From a virus: DNA of 23,950 nucleotides. Positions within the stretch are counted from its first letter, which is position 1, and each line of letters opens with the position of its first letter. The position numbers were made by a program, and so were the translations under genes. The DNA lies in the IMG/VR virus record IMGVR_UViG_3300031951_001189, positions 1-23,950 of that record. One strand, 5' to 3'. The notes below the pieces were generated by a model. That model was not told the DNA's origin. It was given only the letters and a program-made list of their open reading frames with translations, and searched no databases. Below, one piece after another: positions 251 to 12,088 of the stretch.

Positions 251-1498
251 TTATTTTTTGTATTTGTAGGAAGTATCTATTGGTCTTTTACCATATTTCT
301 TTTCCATAAGTTTCTGGTGTAATTCCCAATCTAATATAGATTCATTTGTTTGACCTTTTTCGTCAGGAATTAATGAATAAATTTTTGATATTCTTTTCAT
401 AAGTTTTGTTGCAACATAATTAAATCTTTCACATTCGTCTTTAAAAAAGTCTATTTCTCTATTTGCATATTTTGTAACGTGGTTCTGATATTTTTTAAGA
501 AGTCTTGTTTTACTTTCTGATGGTTGTTTAGCACCCATAAATTGTGCAAACGGACCTAACTTTGAAAACAGCATTTCTTGTCTTGTTAAAACATATTTTT
601 CAAAATTTTCCATTTTTGCATTAGATAAATTAACATACACTAATTCTAAAACCATACTAATTTTTTCATCTTCAGATTTTCCTTCAGTTTCTTCACCAAT
701 ATGTTCAAGTAATCCATCAACTCTATCCATTTGTTCTTTTAAACTATTAATTAGATATTCAAATGAAAAATTTTGTATTTGTTTTAATTCTTTAAAAACT
801 TGATCTTCAGTTATAAAATTATAAAATTGTTCTCTTGTTATACCCATCTCAACCATTCTTGATGCTACTTCCGTTGGTCTAACAACATTTTCTTCATTTT
901 GAATAAAATAACTAAATCTCATAAATTCACTTATAACGGGTATTCCAAAATTTAATCCTGATGATGAATAGGCTTGGTAATCTGCAGTTTCACCAGCCAA
1001 TCCTTTTTGTTTTTTACTTCTTCTAAATCTGTGCATTAATTCATGAGACATTACAGATATACTATGTGTTTTATCTTTTACAAAAGCATCATATAAATCA
1101 CTTTCATCCCAATTTTCAGAAACAATAAACTGAATCATTAGATCTATGGATGATGACTCAACATTAACTTGCATCATAATACCTTCTTCAAAATTAAATT
1201 CGTTTCCAACACCCATTGATGCGATTAATGCTTCTTTTCCATCATATTCTTCAAATTCATCAACTTTAACAAATATGTTTAAATTCGTAAAATTAACGTC
1301 AGAAATTGTCATATCAATTTCAATATCTTCAATTTCATATTCACCTTCAATTGATGTAAGGTTTTTTAATTCGTTTTTAACTATTTCATATAATTCTCTA
1401 CCTTCATCTAATATGTTTTCAGGTACACCAACAGCTTCACTTAAAAGTTTTTTTGTTAGTTGGTTAAATTGGTTTTCTGTAATAATGATTTTTCCCAT
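251..1498 (-). CDS. HExxH metalloprotease-like protein with putative capsid-targeting leader
   Basis: 415 residues. Residues 1-21 form a leader (MGKIIITENQF, then LTKKLLSE) that contains two (L/I)-x-E sites, I6-T7-E8 and L19-S20-E21 before Ala22; the second is a textbook T4-type prohead protease site. Residues 152-156 are HELMH, the zinc-binding motif of gluzincin/zincin-type metalloproteases, preceded by a hydrophobic helix-like stretch (SISVMS). Glu210 in RPTEVASRM is a candidate third ligand. The C-terminal half (about 230-380) is helical and charged. There is no signal peptide. I infer an internal virion protein with protease-like activity. The family as a whole was not recognised, so a purely structural role is possible. 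It has its own weak upstream promoter and follows a terminator-like hairpin, which suggests a separate transcript. Confidence 0.75.
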   Translation of the reverse strand: MGKIIITENQFNQLTKKLLSEAVGVPENILDEGRELYEIVKNELKNLTSIEGEYEIEDIEIDMTISDVNFTNLNIFVKVDEFEEYDGKEALIASMGVGNEFNFEEGIMMQVNVESSSIDLMIQFIVSENWDESDLYDAFVKDKTHSISVMSHELMHRFRRSKKQKGLAGETADYQAYSSSGLNFGIPVISEFMRFSYFIQNEENVVRPTEVASRMVEMGITREQFYNFITEDQVFKELKQIQNFSFEYLINSLKEQMDRVDGLLEHIGEETEGKSEDEKISMVLELVYVNLSNAKMENFEKYVLTRQEMLFSKLGPFAQFMGAKQPSESKTRLLKKYQNHVTKYANREIDFFKDECERFNYVATKLMKRISKIYSLIPDEKGQTNESILDWELHQKLMEKKYGKRPIDTSYKYKK

Positions 1499-1541: not shown

Positions 1542-2178
1542 CTAATCCGTCCAAATGGTGATCACCTGACATATCAGATCCAACAGGTATTTTATCCATA
1601 ATTTTTATTATTTCAGAAATACTGTATGGGTCCATTCCATTTCCATCCATGCCGACATCAAGTCTTTTTCCATTACCAAATTTACGGTGTGGTGGTAAAT
1701 GTACGTGACCATGAAGGTGAATTACACCTTTGTTTAATCCATTCCAACTTTGTAAAGGATAATGACATAACACAAAGTCACGACCTTCAATATTTACTTC
1801 CAAGTAGTGTTGAACACTTAAAAATCTTCCTCGGACAAAATCTCTATTATTCTCAATATGATGGTCGTGGTTTCCAAGTATTAAATGGATGTTATGACAA
1901 ACCAATCTTTCAAGAAAAATACCAATATTATCAAATCCACCAAATGAAACATCACCTAACATTATTAATGTATCATCTTGACCTACAAAATGGTTAATAC
2001 CATCAACAAGTCTTTGGTTCATTTGTTCAATTGTTTGAAAGTCCCTTGTTGAATCAACCGGTACTTTACCATCTTGCGTTCTCCAATTGGTTACACCTCT
2101 CACAATATTTTTGTGTCCGAAATGTGTGTCGGATGTTATATAAACTTTTCCTGTTGTTAATAATTTTCTAAAACTCAT
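1525..2178 (-). CDS. Calcineurin-like metallophosphoesterase
   Basis: 217 residues with all metal-binding motifs of the calcineurin-like phosphoesterase superfamily in order: SDTHFGHKN (D17, H19), LGDVSFGG (D76), LGNHDHH (N103, H104), LCHYP (H139) and HGHVH (H158, H160), followed by the DVGMDGN segment usual in small phage and bacterial phosphoesterases. It should hydrolyse a phosphomonoester or phosphodiester with two metal ions in the cytoplasm; the substrate cannot be read from sequence. Its start overlaps the stop of the P-loop kinase gene by four bases (2175-2178), so the two are probably translationally coupled and may act on the same substrate, for instance nucleic-acid ends. The C-terminal residues (LVGVVG) are encoded inside a hairpin. 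Confidence 0.9.
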   Translation of the reverse strand: MSFRKLLTTGKVYITSDTHFGHKNIVRGVTNWRTQDGKVPVDSTRDFQTIEQMNQRLVDGINHFVGQDDTLIMLGDVSFGGFDNIGIFLERLVCHNIHLILGNHDHHIENNRDFVRGRFLSVQHYLEVNIEGRDFVLCHYPLQSWNGLNKGVIHLHGHVHLPPHRKFGNGKRLDVGMDGNGMDPYSISEIIKIMDKIPVGSDMSGDHHLDGLVGVVG

Positions 2179-2579
2179 AATTTTATTTCAAAACGATTAC
2201 GCATTTGTTCTAATTTTTCTTCCGGTACTTCATGAACATTAGTTCCTCCATGTCTATTTTCAACGACAATTGAAAACACTTTATAACCATGTCTTTTTGC
2301 CATTTCAAAGTATGGTTCCATTTCCCACTCTTGAGTAAATGTATTTGATACTGCAATTCTATCCACATTGACTTGGTCACCTTTAGTTTGCATCCAAGCT
2401 TCAGTTTGTGCTCTACAATATTCATGAGCCAATTTTATTTTTGATCCATCAAATTTGTAATTACCTTCACCATCAATAAAGTATTGGTCCGCCTCTATAA
2501 TAATAGAACCTAATGTTTTAGCAAAAGTTGTTTTACCACTTCCTGGACAACCTCTCACCAAGTATAATATTTTTTCCAT
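2175..2579 (-). CDS. P-loop kinase, polynucleotide-kinase-like
   Basis: 134 residues. A Walker A motif RGCPGSGKTTFAK lies at about residues 9-21. A second conserved segment, IIEADQYFIDGEGNYKFDGS, fits the Asp-containing strand of small zeta-toxin/polynucleotide-kinase-type P-loop kinases, and RIAVSNTFTQEWEMEPYFE resembles the lid/second-strand region of AAA_33 (NEDD4-binding-protein-2-like) ATPases. Such proteins phosphorylate nucleic-acid 5' ends or small molecules with ATP. It is the first gene of a two-gene unit with the metallophosphoesterase downstream, and its ATG follows a -7 promoter box by only four bases. Kinase-fold assignment is firm; substrate is not. Confidence 0.85.
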   Translation of the reverse strand: MEKILYLVRGCPGSGKTTFAKTLGSIIIEADQYFIDGEGNYKFDGSKIKLAHEYCRAQTEAWMQTKGDQVNVDRIAVSNTFTQEWEMEPYFEMAKRHGYKVFSIVVENRHGGTNVHEVPEEKLEQMRNRFEIKL

Positions 2580-2603: not shown

Positions 2604-4817
2604 TTATTCTTTAACACCATTTTCCAGAACATTGTCAATCGTCCACTTATGATGGTACGAGTTCGGGTTTTTATAGGCGGCGTTAACTTCTTTAACACCA
2701 TTTTCAATAGCGTCATTAATATCTTCAGTAATTATTGAGTTAGTAACCATATGATCTTTTTGTTGATAACTTTCAGCCATCTTATGTTTAATTTCTTTAA
2801 CACCATTTTGAATAACCTCATCAATCAATTCAGGAACATTATAGGTGTTATTTTCATCCATCCATTCAACTGTTGATACAATGTCTCCATTACCAGGTGT
2901 TTTAACTTCTTTAACTCCATTTTCAATAGCATCATCAACTTTACGATTTATACGAAGATGTCTAGCACCTATGTCTTTAACACCATTTTGAATAGTTTGT
3001 TCCGCTCTGTAAATTTGTTTAAAGTGATTCATATATCCTTTGTCCGATTTAACTTGTTTTACACCATTTTTAATTACGTCTTTAACCTCGTCATCATCAT
3101 TACTCCACATCGTATGTTTAACACCATTTTCAATAGTATCTTCAACATTATCCTGCCTCATATTAAAATTCCACCCTAAAACATCTTTTACTCCATTTTG
3201 AATGGTGTCTTCAATAGATTTAATTGGTGGTGAATTGAATGTTCGTGTTTCTTTAACCCCATTTTGAATGGCGTCTCCAACCCCTAAACAACTCCTTAAG
3301 TATACCGACTTCACCTCTTTAACCCCATTTTCTATAACATCTTCAGCAATGATATTATCATCCATGTCAAAGTGTCCAACATCTTTCACTCCATTTTTAA
3401 TTGTTTTATCAACATTCGGTGGTTGCTGACCACCAAATTCAATCGCATTATTAATTTCCCTACTTCTTGGGAAAACCCAAGCTGAGATTTCTTTCACACC
3501 ATTTTGGATGGTTTCGTCAACCGCACCCAATGGATACCACATTCGTGTTTGGGTGTCCTTTACCCCATTTTGTATTGCGTTTTCAACAAAACCAATATCA
3601 ATATCATCTTCAGGTAAGGTGGTTTTCACCCCATTTTGAATTGTGTCTTCAACATTTATATCTCCCTCAAAATAATACGGATAACTTTCTTTCACTCCAT
3701 TTTTAAGGGTATCTTCAAAATCAGGATTTAAGGATTCAAGTACGTCCTTGACATATTTTACCCCATTTTGAAGGGTGTCTTCAACGATATCCTCCAACGG
3801 ACTTGAATCACCATCAATTTCCTTTACCCCATTTTGAATGGCATTTTCAACATTGGTTGTCATAGAAAATGGATTATCTATAATTTCTTTCACTCCATTT
3901 TGAATGGCGTCTTCAACAAACACCCTTCCTTTTATAAAATCAAATAAGGTGTACTTTACCCCATTTTGAATGGCGTTTTCAACACCCATGTCATTCATAA
4001 AATCATCGGGTTCAGTATTTTTCACTCCATTTTGAATGGCTTTATTAACATACAATTTATTTTTTTCCAAAATTGGTTTTGACTCTTTAACCCCAGTTTG
4101 AAGGGTATTATCAACACGATTTCGCATGTTGGAAATTCTTTGTTCGGTGTCCTTTACCCCATTTTGAATGGTATCTTCAACCTCAAACAAGGATTTAAAA
4201 ACTTCCTCAAAGGTGTCCTTTACCCCGTTTTGAATGGTATTTTCAATCCCGGTGGTCCTAACACCGGCTTTAGATCTGGTATGTTTCACCCCATTTTGAA
4301 TGGTGTCTTCAACATCTGTCAAGGTTACGTTGTATGTCCCTGCGGTGTCCTTTACCCCTTTTTGAATGGTATCTTCAACTCGCTTGTAGTAAATCATATT
4401 TTTTTGTTTGGCGTCCTTCACCCCATTTTGAATGGTGTCTTCAACAATACTTGGTAGTATCCGTGTGTATTTTTTGGTGTCCTTTACCCCATTTTGAATG
4501 GTGTTTTCAACCCTCAATGGTTTTCCAGCAGTGCTTAAAGTTTCGTCAACAACATTAATACCCAAAAATCTTGATTCAAACCATTCTTTAATTATATCTT
4601 TTGACTCAACACAATCCATGCTAAGTAAGTTTAATTCAGATTGAAATAGATTATAATTAAACCAAAGAGTTTTTGTGTTTGTAAATTCAATAACCCATCT
4701 TTTTTCTTCTGTGAATATTAACCACATTGATGATTTTGTTACGTACTTATCGGCACCTTCAATTATCGTGTCAAACATGCCGTATATCAATTTTCTTATT
4801 TTAGGTGTTATTTCCAT
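2604..4817 (-). CDS. 737-residue repeat protein: 28 copies of a VEDTIQNGVKDT motif
   Basis: Residues 1-100 form a non-repetitive domain that is rich in aromatic residues (MWLIFTEEKRWVIEF, LWFNYN) and ends in a helix-like IIKEWFESRFLG. From residue 103 to the end the protein is a chain of 28 copies of a motif with consensus VEDTIQNGVKDT. The first 17 copies (including one decayed copy, NAIEFGGQQ) lie exactly 22 residues apart, with ten highly variable residues between motifs; later copies lie 14 to 38 residues apart. The last residues of the protein are themselves a motif copy. There is no signal peptide or membrane segment. A full TTTG-20-TAnnTTTG promoter precedes the ATG by four bases. I do not recognise the family. 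A multivalent binding or scaffold protein, or a length-determining virion protein, are possibilities, but neither is shown. Confidence 0.85.
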   Translation of the reverse strand: MEITPKIRKLIYGMFDTIIEGADKYVTKSSMWLIFTEEKRWVIEFTNTKTLWFNYNLFQSELNLLSMDCVESKDIIKEWFESRFLGINVVDETLSTAGKPLRVENTIQNGVKDTKKYTRILPSIVEDTIQNGVKDAKQKNMIYYKRVEDTIQKGVKDTAGTYNVTLTDVEDTIQNGVKHTRSKAGVRTTGIENTIQNGVKDTFEEVFKSLFEVEDTIQNGVKDTEQRISNMRNRVDNTLQTGVKESKPILEKNKLYVNKAIQNGVKNTEPDDFMNDMGVENAIQNGVKYTLFDFIKGRVFVEDAIQNGVKEIIDNPFSMTTNVENAIQNGVKEIDGDSSPLEDIVEDTLQNGVKYVKDVLESLNPDFEDTLKNGVKESYPYYFEGDINVEDTIQNGVKTTLPEDDIDIGFVENAIQNGVKDTQTRMWYPLGAVDETIQNGVKEISAWVFPRSREINNAIEFGGQQPPNVDKTIKNGVKDVGHFDMDDNIIAEDVIENGVKEVKSVYLRSCLGVGDAIQNGVKETRTFNSPPIKSIEDTIQNGVKDVLGWNFNMRQDNVEDTIENGVKHTMWSNDDDEVKDVIKNGVKQVKSDKGYMNHFKQIYRAEQTIQNGVKDIGARHLRINRKVDDAIENGVKEVKTPGNGDIVSTVEWMDENNTYNVPELIDEVIQNGVKEIKHKMAESYQQKDHMVTNSIITEDINDAIENGVKEVNAAYKNPNSYHHKWTIDNVLENGVKE
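2607..4511 (-). repeat. Coding tandem array, 66-base period, 28 units
   Basis: The plus-strand core (typical form CCCCATTTTGAATGGTGTC) begins at 4487, 4421, 4355, 4289, 4223, 4157, 4091, 4025, 3959, 3893, 3827, 3761, 3695, 3629, 3563, 3497 and 3431 (decayed), all 66 bases apart, then at 3389, 3323, 3257, 3191, 3122, 3062, 2981, 2915, 2801, 2696 and 2615. All irregular steps (42, 60, 69, 81, 105, 114) are multiples of three. About 36 bases are conserved and 30 are variable in each regular unit. The valine and second-glycine codons use GTA/GTG/GTT and GGG/GGA/GGT freely, so conservation is at protein level. At least ten cores contain the small hairpin CCATT-TTG-AATGG. Confidence 0.95.
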
Positions 4818-4821
4818 AATG

Positions 4822-4853
4822 CAAAAGTATGATTATATTTTTATTTAATCAAA
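4822..4853 (-). promoter_or_regulatory. Full Bacteroidota-type promoter for the repeat protein
   Basis: On the minus strand TTTG (4850-4853) is followed after exactly 20 bases by TACTTTTG (4822-4829), which matches TTTG-N20-TAnnTTTG. CATT separates the -7 box from the ATG at 4815-4817, so the transcript should be leaderless or nearly so. The plus-strand operon starts at 4871 from the same 53-base gap, but no clear plus-strand box was seen. Confidence 0.65.
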
Positions 4854-4870
4854 CTATTTATAATATTATT

Positions 4871-5356
4871 ATGGAAAGACTAATTAGAAAAATATTAAAA
4901 GAGGTGGAGGAAGAAAAAAATCTATCAAAATTTCAAAAAACTATATTGGGTTATATTTCTGAAAATGGTATTTTAGAAACAATTAAAATGATTGGTGATA
5001 TTACAAGTTTTAATGAAATATTTCCTGATTACTTTAATAGAAGTAGTAACAAAGTAGAATTAATTAATGAACTCGTTAACGCTAATGATCCTGATGGTTA
5101 TATATATTTTTATGAACTAATTAATTCGGATATTTCATTAGGTCAAGTTGATTCTTATGATAACGGTGACGGCCATACTTTTGAAGAATATATACTTTCA
5201 GTTGGTGATGGTTCTGTTCAGATTGGTGTTTATGAATACGATGAAGACGGTGATATGTATGACGAATCTGTGGATAATTATTATGTTTCTCTTAAAAAAT
5301 TACCAGATAATGAATTAAATAAAGTTTTTAAAGTATTGGTTGATTATTATTTATGA
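4871..5356 (+). CDS. Unknown protein with MERLIRKILKE leader (putative internal virion protein)
   Basis: 161 residues from the ATG at 4871. I prefer this to the in-frame ATG at 4829 because it places the shared leader MERLIRKILKE exactly at the N-terminus, as in the genes at 5353 and 6165. L9-K10-E11 gives an (L/I)-x-E site for a T4-type prohead protease. The body has a helical first half and a very acidic second half (SYDNGDGHTFEEY, EYDEDGDMYDESVD), with no cysteines, membrane segments or known motif. It is first in a five-gene plus-strand operon, and its stop overlaps the next start by four bases (ATGA, 5353-5356). The function beyond the leader is not recognised. Confidence 0.75.
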   Translation: MERLIRKILKEVEEEKNLSKFQKTILGYISENGILETIKMIGDITSFNEIFPDYFNRSSNKVELINELVNANDPDGYIYFYELINSDISLGQVDSYDNGDGHTFEEYILSVGDGSVQIGVYEYDEDGDMYDESVDNYYVSLKKLPDNELNKVFKVLVDYYL

Positions 5357-5742
5357 AAAACTTAATTAGAAAAATATTAAAGGAAGAGGTGATGTATGAT
5401 TTTATTGAATCTGCAATGCCTGAACTTAATAATCTTAAACGAAAATCCAATTTTAGTTCAAATTTGTATGGGTATAATACGATATATTACAATCCTAATG
5501 ATAAAGAATATTACTTTAGAGTTTCTGAAGCAAGAAGAGCGTTAGTTTGGTCTTTTGATGATGACGATGACGATGAAATTACAAAATACAAAGATCTACC
5601 AAAAACTTTATGGATTGATGGTAAAACTTATGATGAAATACAAAATTATATACCAGATGATAATATGATTTTAAAATGGTTTAATAAAAAGTATAAACAA
5701 GACGCAAAGGTTCTTAAACGTAAATCTCCGTTGAAAAAATAG
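5353..5742 (+). CDS. Unknown protein with MKNLIRKILKE leader; paralog of the gene at 6165
   Basis: 129 residues. The leader MKNLIRKILKE ends in L9-K10-E11. The body is clearly paralogous to the gene at 6165-6530: both share PELNNL, a YY-N/D-x-x-D-x-x-Y-F-R-V strand pair, PKTLxID, a Y-x-E-I helix, PDxxMxLKWFNKxY near the end, and similar length. It carries a run of six aspartates (about residues 71-76) and a basic tail (KRKSPLKK). The C-terminal helix with LKWFNKKY could be a partner-binding element. The gene starts within the stop codon of its upstream neighbour and is followed directly by the next ATG at 5743, so it is cotranscribed and probably made in step with the others. Confidence 0.75.
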   Translation: MKNLIRKILKEEVMYDFIESAMPELNNLKRKSNFSSNLYGYNTIYYNPNDKEYYFRVSEARRALVWSFDDDDDDEITKYKDLPKTLWIDGKTYDEIQNYIPDDNMILKWFNKKYKQDAKVLKRKSPLKK

Positions 5743-6168
5743 ATGATGAAAATAATAATTACAGAATCACAATACGATAAATTAGTATCTTCTCTAACGG
5801 GAGAACCTAAACGCAACCCATCTTTATTTTCTAAATTTAAAAATTGGATATCGGGTAATAGTGACAACGAGATTGGTAAAATGTTATTGAAGTCAATTGA
5901 ATCTGGAAATTATGAATTTGATGGGATTGATATTTTATATACTATTTATACTATAAAATTTTCAATAAATAATTTTCCGTTTAAAATAACAAAAGATAAT
6001 GGTAGCACAAAAGATAATATATTTTCTTTATATATGCCATATGTTAAGGAAGAATTAAAAATAAATAAAAACTTATTGAAACATATTTTTGATTTAATGG
6101 CTAAAAATCATATGGATACTGAGGATTATTTAAATATGCATTTAACAGATATGATTAATTCACTATGA
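5743..6168 (+). CDS. Unknown protein with MKIIITESQY leader
   Basis: 141 residues; the start is ATGATG at 5743, so Met1 or Met2 could be used. The leader MMKIIITESQYDKLV is the second leader type in the window, shared with the genes at 251-1498 and 6539-8128. I6-T7-E8 before Ser9 matches the (L/I)-x-E rule. The body (about 25-141) has mixed helices and strands, with no recognised motif, membrane segment or cysteine. It starts immediately after the previous stop and overlaps the next gene by four bases (6165-6168), so it sits inside the operon of leader-bearing proteins. An internal virion protein is inferred from the leader only. Confidence 0.72.
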   Translation: MMKIIITESQYDKLVSSLTGEPKRNPSLFSKFKNWISGNSDNEIGKMLLKSIESGNYEFDGIDILYTIYTIKFSINNFPFKITKDNGSTKDNIFSLYMPYVKEELKINKNLLKHIFDLMAKNHMDTEDYLNMHLTDMINSL

Positions 6169-6530
6169 AAGAACTAATTAGAAAAATATTAAAGGAATCT
6201 GTTATGGAGAATTTAATTGACTCTATATTACCTGAACTTAATAATTTAAGTTCAAAGATTGATAGTACTGGTGAATTTTCACCAAATACAGTTTACTACG
6301 ATAAGGAAACAGATAAACATTATTTTAGAGTCCTTGAACCAAGAATGGTTGGTATATGGGGTGATGATGGGGAACTTAAAAAAGTATTAAAACCTAAAAC
6401 ACTACTTATTGATGCTCGTTATTATAATGAAATTATGAAATATGTTCCTGATGAAGAAATGGTTTTAAAATGGTTTAATAAACAATATGACGAAAACGTT
6501 GAATCTGTTCGTCGTTTTTTATCAATTTAA
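6165..6530 (+). CDS. Unknown protein with MKELIRKILKE leader; paralog of the gene at 5353
   Basis: 121 residues. The leader MKELIRKILKE ends in L9-K10-E11 before Ser12, a good T4-type prohead protease site. The rest aligns end to end with the 129-residue protein at 5353-5742 (PELNNL; VYYDKETDKHYFRVLEPR; PKTLLIDARYYNEI; PDEEMVLKWFNKQY), but lacks the polyaspartate run and the basic tail. The two copies flank the unrelated gene at 5743. This suggests duplication of a two-gene block or insertion of a gene between copies, followed by considerable divergence. Function unknown. Confidence 0.75.
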   Translation: MKELIRKILKESVMENLIDSILPELNNLSSKIDSTGEFSPNTVYYDKETDKHYFRVLEPRMVGIWGDDGELKKVLKPKTLLIDARYYNEIMKYVPDEEMVLKWFNKQYDENVESVRRFLSI

Positions 6531-6538
6531 ATAAAGTA

Positions 6539-8128
6539 ATGAAAATAATATTAACAGAAGAACAATATAAAGAAGTTTTAAATGAAAACATAATTAAGGA
6601 CACATTAAAAGACCTTAAAATAAATGCTGGTATTGTTTTCACATTTGGTGCTGGTATGGGTGCATTTATGGGTCCTGTTAATAGATTGTTATCAGGTTCA
6701 GGATTTAATTTAGAATCATCAGAAGTTGCCCTTTTAATTATTACATCAGTTGCAATTCTTTTAAATGATATATCTAAAAAAGAATTACTTAATAAAGTAG
6801 AAGATAAAAATTTAACAGAACCATTAGATGGTGTTAAAGATTTAATAAAAAATATTACAGATATTATTAGAAGTGTTTTTAAAGTTGGTTTAGGTATGAC
6901 ATATTCTTTAGGTGAGATATTAGGTTTCTCATTTCTTTTAACACCAATAATGAAAATATTAAATCAAATTATAAATGATAGAAACATAACAACAGATAAT
7001 GTAAATATTTTATTAAGTGGTGTAGTTTTATCTGGTTTAGTTTTTACAATTAGAAACATAATTAAAAAAGTTAAAGGTAATATTTCTGATACCAAAGAAG
7101 ATTTAAAAGAAGAAATAGAACCATCCGATAGAGCAATTAAAAATATTTGTGACGCAAAAAAATTCTGTAAAGCACAAGGTAAAATAACCTTTGGTCAATT
7201 AAGGGAGTTGGTTGAATCAGCAAAAACAAGAAGATTATTTTTAAATATCGGTGAAGGTGGATTTAAGGCAACAATAAGAATATTACCTTGGTTTATTCCA
7301 CAATTAGCAATTGCTGGTTTTACCGCATCTTTAATAAGGGCAGTTAATAAAATATTTAAACCAGCATTAGAAGAAACAACAAGTTATAAAACATGGTGGG
7401 GTAAATCCATTATGAAAATATTTAACATGGTTGAAGGTGAGTTGGGTATTGGTGATCCATTATCAAAAATATTTTTTATCTCTGATGGTTTATTAACCAT
7501 GTTAGATGAAAAAGAAAAAGTTAAGTTCGCGAGATATATTGCTGAGGTTGCAAGTGAAAAACCAGATGAAGAAGAAGTACCTGAATTTTTTGTTGAAAAT
7601 GAATTAAGAAATTGGTTAAATGAAAAATTCTTATTAGATCCACCATTACAACCAAAAAATGTAAAACCTGAAAAACTTGATGAGGGTTATTTAATTAAAG
7701 AAAGTTATGTTAGATTAACTGAAGATAATACCGACAACCTTCTTGGTTATTTATATGAGATGGGTTTTGAAAATGATGATGCAATGTATGAGTTAAATAA
7801 CATCACAGAGTTTTATGATAATTTACCTGAAACATTAACATTATATAGAATTGTGTTTGTCGATAGTGAAGATGAAATAGACACACAATACCCAGGTAAT
7901 CACTACTCTATGAATAAGAAAAATTTAATTGATAGTCATTACGGATCTTTAAGAGATAGTTCTTATGGTGAAAACCCTTATATGATTAAAGTTAAAGTTC
8001 AAAAACAACTTATTGATTTTTATGAATCAATAAAAAATAACATTCTTTATCCTAACGAACAAGAAGTAACATTAAAGAATAAAGGTTTTGGTGCCGATAT
8101 TATAGAAATAACACCGATTAATTTATAA
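6539..8128 (+). CDS. Multi-domain protein: leader, hydrophobic segments, C-terminal ADP-ribosyltransferase-like domain
   Basis: 529 residues. The leader MKIILTEEQYKEVLNE has two (L/I)-x-E sites (L5-T6-E7 and L14-N15-E16). Hydrophobic segments follow at about 30-46, 61-77, 115-140, 155-172 and 246-266, with amphipathic stretches between them. A charged central region (about 195-370, CDAKKFC, PEFFVENELRNWL) follows. Residues 430-529 fit the R-S-E layout of ADP-ribosyltransferases: LYRIV (R437), NHYSM (S457) and NEQEV (E507-x-E509). T4 Alt is a packaged, injected ADP-ribosyltransferase that has a gp21-cleaved leader, so the combination makes sense. The transferase call rests on motif order only. 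The hydrophobic part could insert into a membrane to deliver the C-terminal domain. It ends the operon and faces a convergent gene. Confidence 0.72.
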   Translation: MKIILTEEQYKEVLNENIIKDTLKDLKINAGIVFTFGAGMGAFMGPVNRLLSGSGFNLESSEVALLIITSVAILLNDISKKELLNKVEDKNLTEPLDGVKDLIKNITDIIRSVFKVGLGMTYSLGEILGFSFLLTPIMKILNQIINDRNITTDNVNILLSGVVLSGLVFTIRNIIKKVKGNISDTKEDLKEEIEPSDRAIKNICDAKKFCKAQGKITFGQLRELVESAKTRRLFLNIGEGGFKATIRILPWFIPQLAIAGFTASLIRAVNKIFKPALEETTSYKTWWGKSIMKIFNMVEGELGIGDPLSKIFFISDGLLTMLDEKEKVKFARYIAEVASEKPDEEEVPEFFVENELRNWLNEKFLLDPPLQPKNVKPEKLDEGYLIKESYVRLTEDNTDNLLGYLYEMGFENDDAMYELNNITEFYDNLPETLTLYRIVFVDSEDEIDTQYPGNHYSMNKKNLIDSHYGSLRDSSYGENPYMIKVKVQKQLIDFYESIKNNILYPNEQEVTLKNKGFGADIIEITPINL

Positions 8129-10894: not shown

Positions 10895-12088
10895 TTAATT
10901 TGATAATGGAGCCTTAATTGATGGGTGTGATTGATAGTTCTCAATTCTAATATGTGATACATGAATATTCTTTAGAAACTCAGAAATATCTTTTGGCGTA
11001 TTTGATGTGTCACCTTGAGTAGAATACCAATCATCTAAAATTAATTTAGGTAGTGGGTATGGTTCTCTACCAATCTGTTCTTCTGCTTGTTCAATATGAT
11101 TTGAATATAAATGCGTATCACCTAGATTACCAATCAATTCATCAGGAATCATATTAACTTCTTTTGCAATGATTTCTAATAACAAGCCGTAAGATGCAAT
11201 GTTGAATGGTAAACCTAAGAATGTATCTACTGAACGTTGATTCCACATTAAAGAGATTGCTCTGTTTGGTGTATTGGATTCGTCACATACTTTGTGAACT
11301 TCATCATCTAAATCCATAGTAACATTACTTTTTATAAAATCAAACAGTTCGTTTGAGTCCAATAAATTAATTTGTTTAGTGTTTTTATAAGTAATTCTTT
11401 CACTGGCCGTCAACTCTCTTGTATAAACTTGAAATCCATAATGACAAGGTGGAAGTACCATTGAATCTAATTCACCAACATTCCAAGCTGAAACCATTAA
11501 TCGTCTTGAGTCCGGATTTGTTTTAAGGTCGTTGATTAGGTTTGTGATTTGGTCTATGACCTTTTCCCCAACTAATGTATGTAGACCGTTGTGTCCTAAT
11601 GTTACATTTTCACCTGTACCCCACTTTCGCCATTGTTTACCGTAAATTGGACCCAATTCACCCCACTTCTTAGCAAACTCATCATCTGTTTTGATTTTGT
11701 TGATGAATTCTTCTTTTGTTAAGATATCCGCACTCATAAAATCATTACTCATTGATATCCATTCATTAGGTAATATATGGTTAGCGTCTTTCTCAAACTG
11801 ACAGGTTTTTTGAAATCTCTTATATGCATCTCCATCCCAAATACGACAACCATTATCAACCAAAAATTTAATGTTTGTGTCACCACGTAAGAACCAAATT
11901 AATTCCGTAACCATCGTCTTGAATGCCATCTTCTTTGTTGTAAGTAATGGAAATCCCTCACTCATTTTATGACGGATCTGCCTACCAAAAACACTAATTG
12001 TTCCGGTCCCTGTACGATCCTCTTTACGGACACCATTATCTAAAATGTACTGTAATAAATCTGTGTATTGTCTATCTAATGTATTCAT
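10895..12088 (-). CDS. thyA: Thymidylate synthase ThyA
   Basis: 397 residues. It converts dUMP to dTMP with methylene-tetrahydrofolate, supplying thymidylate for phage DNA synthesis in the host cytoplasm. The family signature is complete: EDRTGTGT (R25, phosphate binding), FPLLTTKK, ELIWFLRGDTN, the catalytic LPPCHYGFQ (C215), WNQRSVDTFLGLPFNIASY and GDTHLYSNH. The Asn296 in LPFNIASY fits a dUMP-specific synthase rather than a dCMP hydroxymethylase, which has Asp there. The protein is about 130 residues longer than E. coli ThyA, with extra material at about 93-142 and 228-275, before the IYGKQWRKW and MWNQRS blocks. Both insertions are in frame and lack splice-like or intein features, so I regard them as lineage-specific loops. 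Confidence 0.97.
   Translation of the reverse strand: MNTLDRQYTDLLQYILDNGVRKEDRTGTGTISVFGRQIRHKMSEGFPLLTTKKMAFKTMVTELIWFLRGDTNIKFLVDNGCRIWDGDAYKRFQKTCQFEKDANHILPNEWISMSNDFMSADILTKEEFINKIKTDDEFAKKWGELGPIYGKQWRKWGTGENVTLGHNGLHTLVGEKVIDQITNLINDLKTNPDSRRLMVSAWNVGELDSMVLPPCHYGFQVYTRELTASERITYKNTKQINLLDSNELFDFIKSNVTMDLDDEVHKVCDESNTPNRAISLMWNQRSVDTFLGLPFNIASYGLLLEIIAKEVNMIPDELIGNLGDTHLYSNHIEQAEEQIGREPYPLPKLILDDWYSTQGDTSNTPKDISEFLKNIHVSHIRIENYQSHPSIKAPLSN

Follow-up and report, generated by a model that had tools for sequence, protein, structure and literature searches.

We find that an uncultured phage gene encodes a conserved N-terminal domain followed by a long array of short peptide cassettes, and that phages very probably acquire, drop and reshuffle these cassettes among one another, the junctions lying in a conserved core of the repeat. 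Our tentative explanation of the whole is a phage library of interchangeable peptides, exchanged by recombination and serving as a putative multi-target binder. The window, that is, the whole stretch of DNA analysed, covers a virus record 23,950 bases long and contains the gene and its parts at the following positions.

2604..4817, minus strand: cassette-array gene, 737 amino acids, stop codon at 2604-2606, with full-length relatives L001 and L002
4548..4817, minus strand: N-terminal domain, residues 1 to about 90, delimited by 73-sequence alignment A1 and AlphaFold2
3414..4511, minus strand: regular N-proximal stretch of the array (residues 103-468), in which 17 motif copies follow one another at exact 66-base steps
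2607..3413, minus strand: irregular C-proximal stretch of the array (residues 469-737), with decayed motifs, variable spacing and cassettes widely common to other phages
4482..4499, minus strand: first of about 27 joint cores, codons for IQNGVK, within which phage-to-phage exchanges fall

The original prediction, of a 737-residue reading frame with 28 copies of one motif, 17 of them exactly 66 bases apart, holds on the minus strand; plus-strand translation of 2604-4817 meets many stops and the frame is open on the minus strand only. A run of 738 stop-free codons has p ~ 4e-24 at this base composition. The consensus motif, VEDTIQNGVKDT, is found 28 times between residues 103 and 737 when matched loosely, with a recognisable NGVK-type core in 27 of the 28 copies; the one degenerate copy is INNAIEFGGQQP, at residue 455. 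Copies 1-17 start exactly 22 residues (66 bases) apart, at residues 103-455, and the spacings after copy 17 are 14, 22, 22, 22, 23, 20, 27, 22, 38, 35 and 27 residues. A position-specific matrix detected 26 sites in the window protein, compared with 0.115 on average, and never more than 1, across 200 shuffles. Motif copies diverge at about 19-22% of bases. Spacers within one array are unrelated, with a mean nucleotide identity of 0.284 for within-array pairs versus 0.278 between arrays, and the positions of ten-residue spacers have scarcely any residue preference (0.08-0.33 bits, 459 unique examples). The description of a kept motif and a free spacer is thus accurate within one array, whereas across phages the same spacers are conserved.

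The array family occurs in about 100 uncultured viral contigs among the matches listed. A degenerate motif DNA pattern matched at least 120 stretches of a viral collection and a search with the N-terminal domain recovered 75 loci there; from both searches we drew at least 115 distinct reading frames and at least 1044 motif-spacer units, 72% of the 1044 at exactly 22 residues. Arrays hold 5-29 motif copies, and nearly all motif-bearing reading frames either have the N-terminal domain or run off the end of their contig. One candidate member, L095, was discarded as a chance match. The full-length relatives, from two viral contigs, are 470 (L001) and 468 (L002) residues long and repeat the spacers of the window without change of order, differing by the loss or gain of entire units. 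Two array genes lie together in each of the loci L053, L058, L088, L093, L028 and L029, so some phages have paralogous arrays. Locus L230 (G023:8600-9500) is a decayed array, in which the domain reading frame ends after one motif and further cassettes lie in another frame. All relatives are metagenomic assemblies, in which short common cores could in principle yield chimeras; identical arrays recur in many independent samples (one reading frame in 22 loci, another in 7), which speaks against assembly chimeras without excluding them.

As the original prediction supposed, no known family with such a layout was found in Pfam, NCBIfam, PHROGs, PDB or the searchable literature. The array protein had no match above the curated cut-offs of Pfam or NCBIfam, and the only repeat-family match was to PHROG 3806, of unknown function, over residues 539-674 (E 1.7e-9); two relatives, L184 and L016, had no PHROG match. 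The motif string was absent from the searchable literature, which is largely without subscription papers, and searches there for similar layouts returned nothing relevant. Against the PADLOC defence families the window protein had no match and L184 a single weak one (E 5.6e-4). The motif DNA pattern gave 36 stretches in 84,980 prokaryote species, each a single chance match in an unrelated gene. The N-terminal domain was not found among 50,697 phage records (best E 0.6), and 397 genomes from a single bacterial family gave nothing convincing, the one match being weak and partial (E 5.6e-4).

The evidence for exchange comes from comparing arrays. Across 1,229 array pairs with less than 30% of cassettes in common, there were 1,478 common cassettes and only 12 conserved adjacencies. 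We then profiled the flanks of a common cassette in 931 pairs with low-overlap arrays and different neighbours. Identity was 0.815 over the final 6 bases of the upstream motif (baseline 0.551) and 0.756 over bases 7-12 of the downstream motif (baseline 0.556), staying above baseline through the first twelve bases of the latter; in the core between those motif ends it was at baseline. A common cassette carries along two codons before it and four after it and the central IQNGVK core stays behind, which places the exchange in the core. The profile defines the exchanged unit as xT-spacer-VEDT with junctions within IQNGVK, about 16 residues in all: two residues, the spacer (usually exactly 10) and VEDT-like residues. 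Homologous recombination is a reasonably likely cause of the exchange. In its favour, one family contig encodes a UvsX-like recombinase (PHROG 97, E 6e-14); against it, motif copies differ by about 19-22% of bases, so that recombination has only a short uniform stretch to work on.

We found that the spacers themselves are conserved. Among the matches listed, 648 spacers across the family fell into 464 clusters, some present in more than 20 loci; widespread examples are EDGDWLDGDER (29 loci), HDDxYHHKGR (25) and GTLRRT (22). Spacers recur in otherwise unrelated arrays beside new neighbours. Comparison of spacer alleles gave a pN/pS of 0.31 overall and of 0.36-0.40 in four subsets (N-proximal, C-proximal, close arrays and distant arrays); the allele pairs are non-independent, so these ratios are estimates, their direction being equal in every subset. 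Within what sequence can demonstrate, each cassette is kept by purifying selection on its peptide. Comparison within arrays placed 0.36% of spacer pairs at 60% or more identity versus 0.03% in the background; apart from these pairs within-array identity equals background, and simple tandem duplication with later spacer divergence was rejected. These results probably invert the roles first proposed for motif and spacer. Rather than passive rulers, spacers are individually conserved (pN/pS about 0.3-0.4) and recur in different arrays and places; they, not the motif, are the conserved and exchanged part, and the motif core, read originally as a contact point, is a joint preserved in part at the DNA level. 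Multivalent binding continues to be the most natural putative function, stripped of the motif as its contact.

The genes and signals around the array gene bear on its role and host.

2175-2579, minus strand: small P-loop kinase-like protein (AAA_33; PHROG 2071)
251-1498, minus strand: 415-residue protein with the HExxH-type stretch SHELMHRF and relatives near 21 array loci
10895-12088, minus strand: thymidylate synthase, 397 residues, with a Pfam match in two stretches
4822..4829, minus strand: candidate -7 promoter box TACTTTTG (TAnnTTTG), 4 bases before the start codon
4850..4853, minus strand: candidate -33 element TTTG, 20 bases upstream of the -7 box

Recurrent neighbours of array genes are thymidylate synthase, phosphoesterases, a small P-loop kinase and small unknown genes, which points to an accessory rather than a virion module. 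The kinase-like gene directly follows the array gene in 13 loci, at a median distance of 21 bases. The split Pfam match of the thymidylate synthase indicates an insertion. The 415-residue protein had no Pfam or NCBIfam match and is possibly a metallopeptidase. Unrelated proteins of the window (4871-8128, plus strand; 251-1498, minus strand) begin with MKxLIRKILKE or MKIIITExQY tags and the array protein is without one; phage T4 has a capsid-targeting sequence, and by analogy the tags may be a targeting signal of that kind. TAnnTTTG with an upstream TTTG is the Bacteroidota-type promoter consensus. The same arrangement precedes 23 of 71 distinct array-gene upstream regions, with a spacing of 20 between TTTG and the -7 box in 13 regions. 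In 23 of the 71 array genes the box ends 2-6 bases before the start codon, so near that leaderless or nearly leaderless transcripts are predicted. No known RNA elements were detected in the window. For both its thymidylate synthase and its Band-7 gene, the window is most similar to Flavobacterium phages (54.6% identity for the former, with Flavobacterium phage immuto as best cultured match, and 47.2% for the latter); because of these affinities and the promoter type, the host is probably a Flavobacterium-like bacterium.

The N-terminal domain keeps nine residues invariant in the 73-sequence alignment A1 (W32, I34, W41, E44, L51, W52, N54, F58 and W79). AlphaFold2 predicts a helix, four strands and two helices, with a mean pLDDT of 85 and about 92-96 over residues 11-80. 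The domain had no match in Pfam, PHROG, PDB sequences or PDB folds. In one relative, L012, the array reading frame has a partial duplication inside the domain (TLWYNYTIELTEGKTLWYNYNFF). Relatives of the domain that have no array were found in the same phages, and two products of the window are probably its paralogues.

5353..5742, plus strand: probable array-less paralogue of the N-terminal domain; profile-profile comparison of A1 with A3, probability 98.7%, a score partly due to members of A3 that were found with A1
6165..6530, plus strand: second probable array-less paralogue of that domain, from the profile-profile comparison and from 48% identity with the 5353-5742 product

The fold of the repeat unit is less clear-cut. 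The motif has a helical moment of 0.54, reached by 0.5% of shuffles, and its strand moment is not significant. In many members the final helix of the N-terminal domain passes without a break into the first motif (YITKWVEDTIQNGVK), and the IQNGVK core probably forms the end of an amphipathic helix that originated as a copy of that final helix. A helix plus loop is weakly favoured for the unit. The structure prediction that had been proposed as a check runs counter to this at low confidence: the five-unit AlphaFold2 model is all beta, with a strand-turn-strand in each unit, at a best pLDDT of 65 and down to 31 in other models. Foldseek gave it no PDB match below E 0.02 (probability 0.12 for the best), the weak matches being beta-solenoids and amyloids, including FapC, CsgA and ice-binding proteins. 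The beta model and the strict 22-residue period are what would be expected of a structural rod or fibre, in which the units stack as a solenoid or helical rod with the motif as core and the spacers as surface loops. Such a protein might be a scaffold, a virion or fibre component or a functional amyloid, and exchange would vary its length or surface. The fixed ten-residue spacer length also suggests a structural role, as free binding motifs would not need it. We nevertheless consider a rod or fibre unlikely. Repetitive inputs to structure prediction often give spurious solenoids, the motif prefers helix over strand, the C-proximal spacing is irregular, and the recurrent neighbours, of nucleotide metabolism, phosphoesterase, kinase and small unknown types, are not tail or head genes.

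The core is a joint conserved partly as DNA, to judge from its non-preferred codons. Gly is encoded there by GGG at a frequency of 0.79 (0.11 in other genes), Val by GTG at 0.66 (0.12) and Thr by ACC at 0.89 (0.15). The DNA of the core is unusually uniform and holds an imperfect palindrome. These features could also mark a recombination-prone or selfish core multiplying in a dispensable frame, whose protein would have little function. A copy number ranging from 5 to 29 would suit such an element, as would the codon content of young spacers: unique N-proximal spacers have a coding score of 0.104, close to random stop-free phage DNA (0.095), with common spacers at 0.220 and in-frame gene fragments at 0.288. 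A repeat maintained mainly at the DNA level is nonetheless quite improbable, given the peptide-level purifying selection on spacers and the well conserved N-terminal domain. The frame is, moreover, always kept: all 606 occurrences of the exact 21-base core in the retrieved loci are in frame within array reading frames, and none was found outside them in the viral collection.

Arrays are polarized. In 44 non-redundant complete arrays, the proportion of cassettes common to another array rises from 23% in the N-proximal fifth to 61% in the C-proximal fifth, a trend reached by 0 of 500 permutations and persisting with exact 22-residue units alone. From the N-proximal to the C-proximal end, motif DNA identity to the consensus falls from 29.8/36 to 25.7/36 and exact 22-residue spacing from 0.87 to 0.44. 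These gradients show from sequence that cassette turnover is highest beside the N-terminal domain; together with the codon scores, they fit new cassettes entering N-proximally, followed by selection. Spacers had no above-chance match in 1.7 Mb of related phage DNA and no match in 397 genomes of one bacterial family, and the 22-base cores of two window spacers were nowhere in the viral collection. Copying from neighbouring phage DNA, with chance-level matches only, was rejected as a source, as was copying from elsewhere in the array or the opposite strand, with a few matches of 14-26 bases in no pattern.

A polarity of novelty, a 36-base repeat and a 30-base spacer resemble a CRISPR array, and adaptation machinery could in principle insert a spacer and a repeat copy at a leader end next to the N-terminal domain; 36 + 30 = 66 would keep the reading frame, and the young spacers are frame-blind in codon content. 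Acquisition of this kind is very unlikely. Adjacent motifs are barely more alike (DNA identity 0.81) than motifs of other arrays (0.775), which speaks against copying of the neighbouring repeat as in CRISPR adaptation, exchange points fall within the core and spacers are selected as peptides. Furthermore, 21 family contigs hold no Cas1, limited searches of phage DNA, the viral collection and 397 bacterial genomes gave no protospacer, and no host array bearing this repeat turned up in 84,980 species. A tail tape-measure protein or fragment, hinted at by tblastn matches to Enterococcus and Bacillus phage tape-measure proteins (E 8e-7 to 2e-4), is so improbable that we rejected it on profile and neighbourhood: identity is only 23-25% and confined to the repeats, PHROG 5493 matches only at E 0.065, no tail genes were recognised in the window, the genes that recur beside the array are metabolic ones and small ones of no known type, and 5-29 motif copies make the length too variable to set that of a tail.

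We return to the interchangeable-peptide library, which would consist of the conserved domain and its 5 to 29 motif copies, with neighbouring cassettes joined through the conserved IQNGVK core. When related phages occupy one cell, the phage's own UvsX-type recombinase would make new junctions through homologous recombination within the uniform core of roughly 20 bases. Early in infection, a cytoplasmic array protein might then display its spacer peptides as short binding motifs. Their putative targets would be numerous and diverse proteins of the host or of rival phages, most likely ones involved in defence. That the spacers are such binding motifs is a doubtful part of the proposal. We propose that, as targets differ between host strains, the best cassette set shifts and the array keeps being reassorted. 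If the peptides do bind, the arrays amount to several hundred short peptides already tested in nature (464 clusters sampled), which could help to identify targets of host defence or takeover in Bacteroidota, and how phages assemble multi-target inhibitors becomes a directly testable question.

We know of no described protein family in which individually conserved short peptides are freely reassorted through a built-in joint with CRISPR-like polarity. Diversity-generating retroelements also produce hypervariable protein segments in phages; the array gene instead swaps whole spacers and has no scaffold of constant residues, and such an element was rejected as no reverse transcriptase was found in the 21 family contigs. 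Curli CsgA, FapC and beta-solenoids have a period near 22 residues and a weak likeness to the low-confidence model, but there is no significant fold match, the motif favours helix and array spacers are unconserved within an array. Polymorphic toxins and other cassette-recombining proteins likewise have a constant N-terminal part and swap downstream parts through homologous stretches (PMC3482391), whereas array cassettes are about 16 residues long, many per protein and without a toxin domain. False-CRISPR elements are protein-coding tandem repeats that resemble CRISPR, described as without diverse spacers (PMC5294841); the array gene has the same CRISPR-like pattern inside a reading frame, but its spacers are fully diverse (459 unique ten-residue spacers sampled).

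CRISPR arrays proper have the 36-base repeat, the unrelated 30-base spacers, the unique units at one end and the common, decayed units at the other. Unlike them, the array gene is protein-coding and in frame, with peptide-selected spacers and junctions inside the repeat. CRISPR repeats are near-identical and their locus is non-coding, whereas motif DNA identity is 81% between adjacent copies and 77.5% with other arrays, and the array gene is one open frame under peptide-level purifying selection. We thus rejected a CRISPR array on its diverged repeats, its coding locus and the lack of Cas1 in 21 family contigs (controls were positive; the records may be fragments); the scanned genes of the window include no cas genes. 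An open-ended, heritable peptide repertoire is a more speculative, rather unlikely extension of our explanation: new 30-base cassettes would be added beside the N-terminal domain and tried out as peptides in the course of infection, and useful ones kept and spread between phages, recording past hosts or rivals. If so, the array would be a protein counterpart of the RNA-based log of encounters that a CRISPR array keeps.
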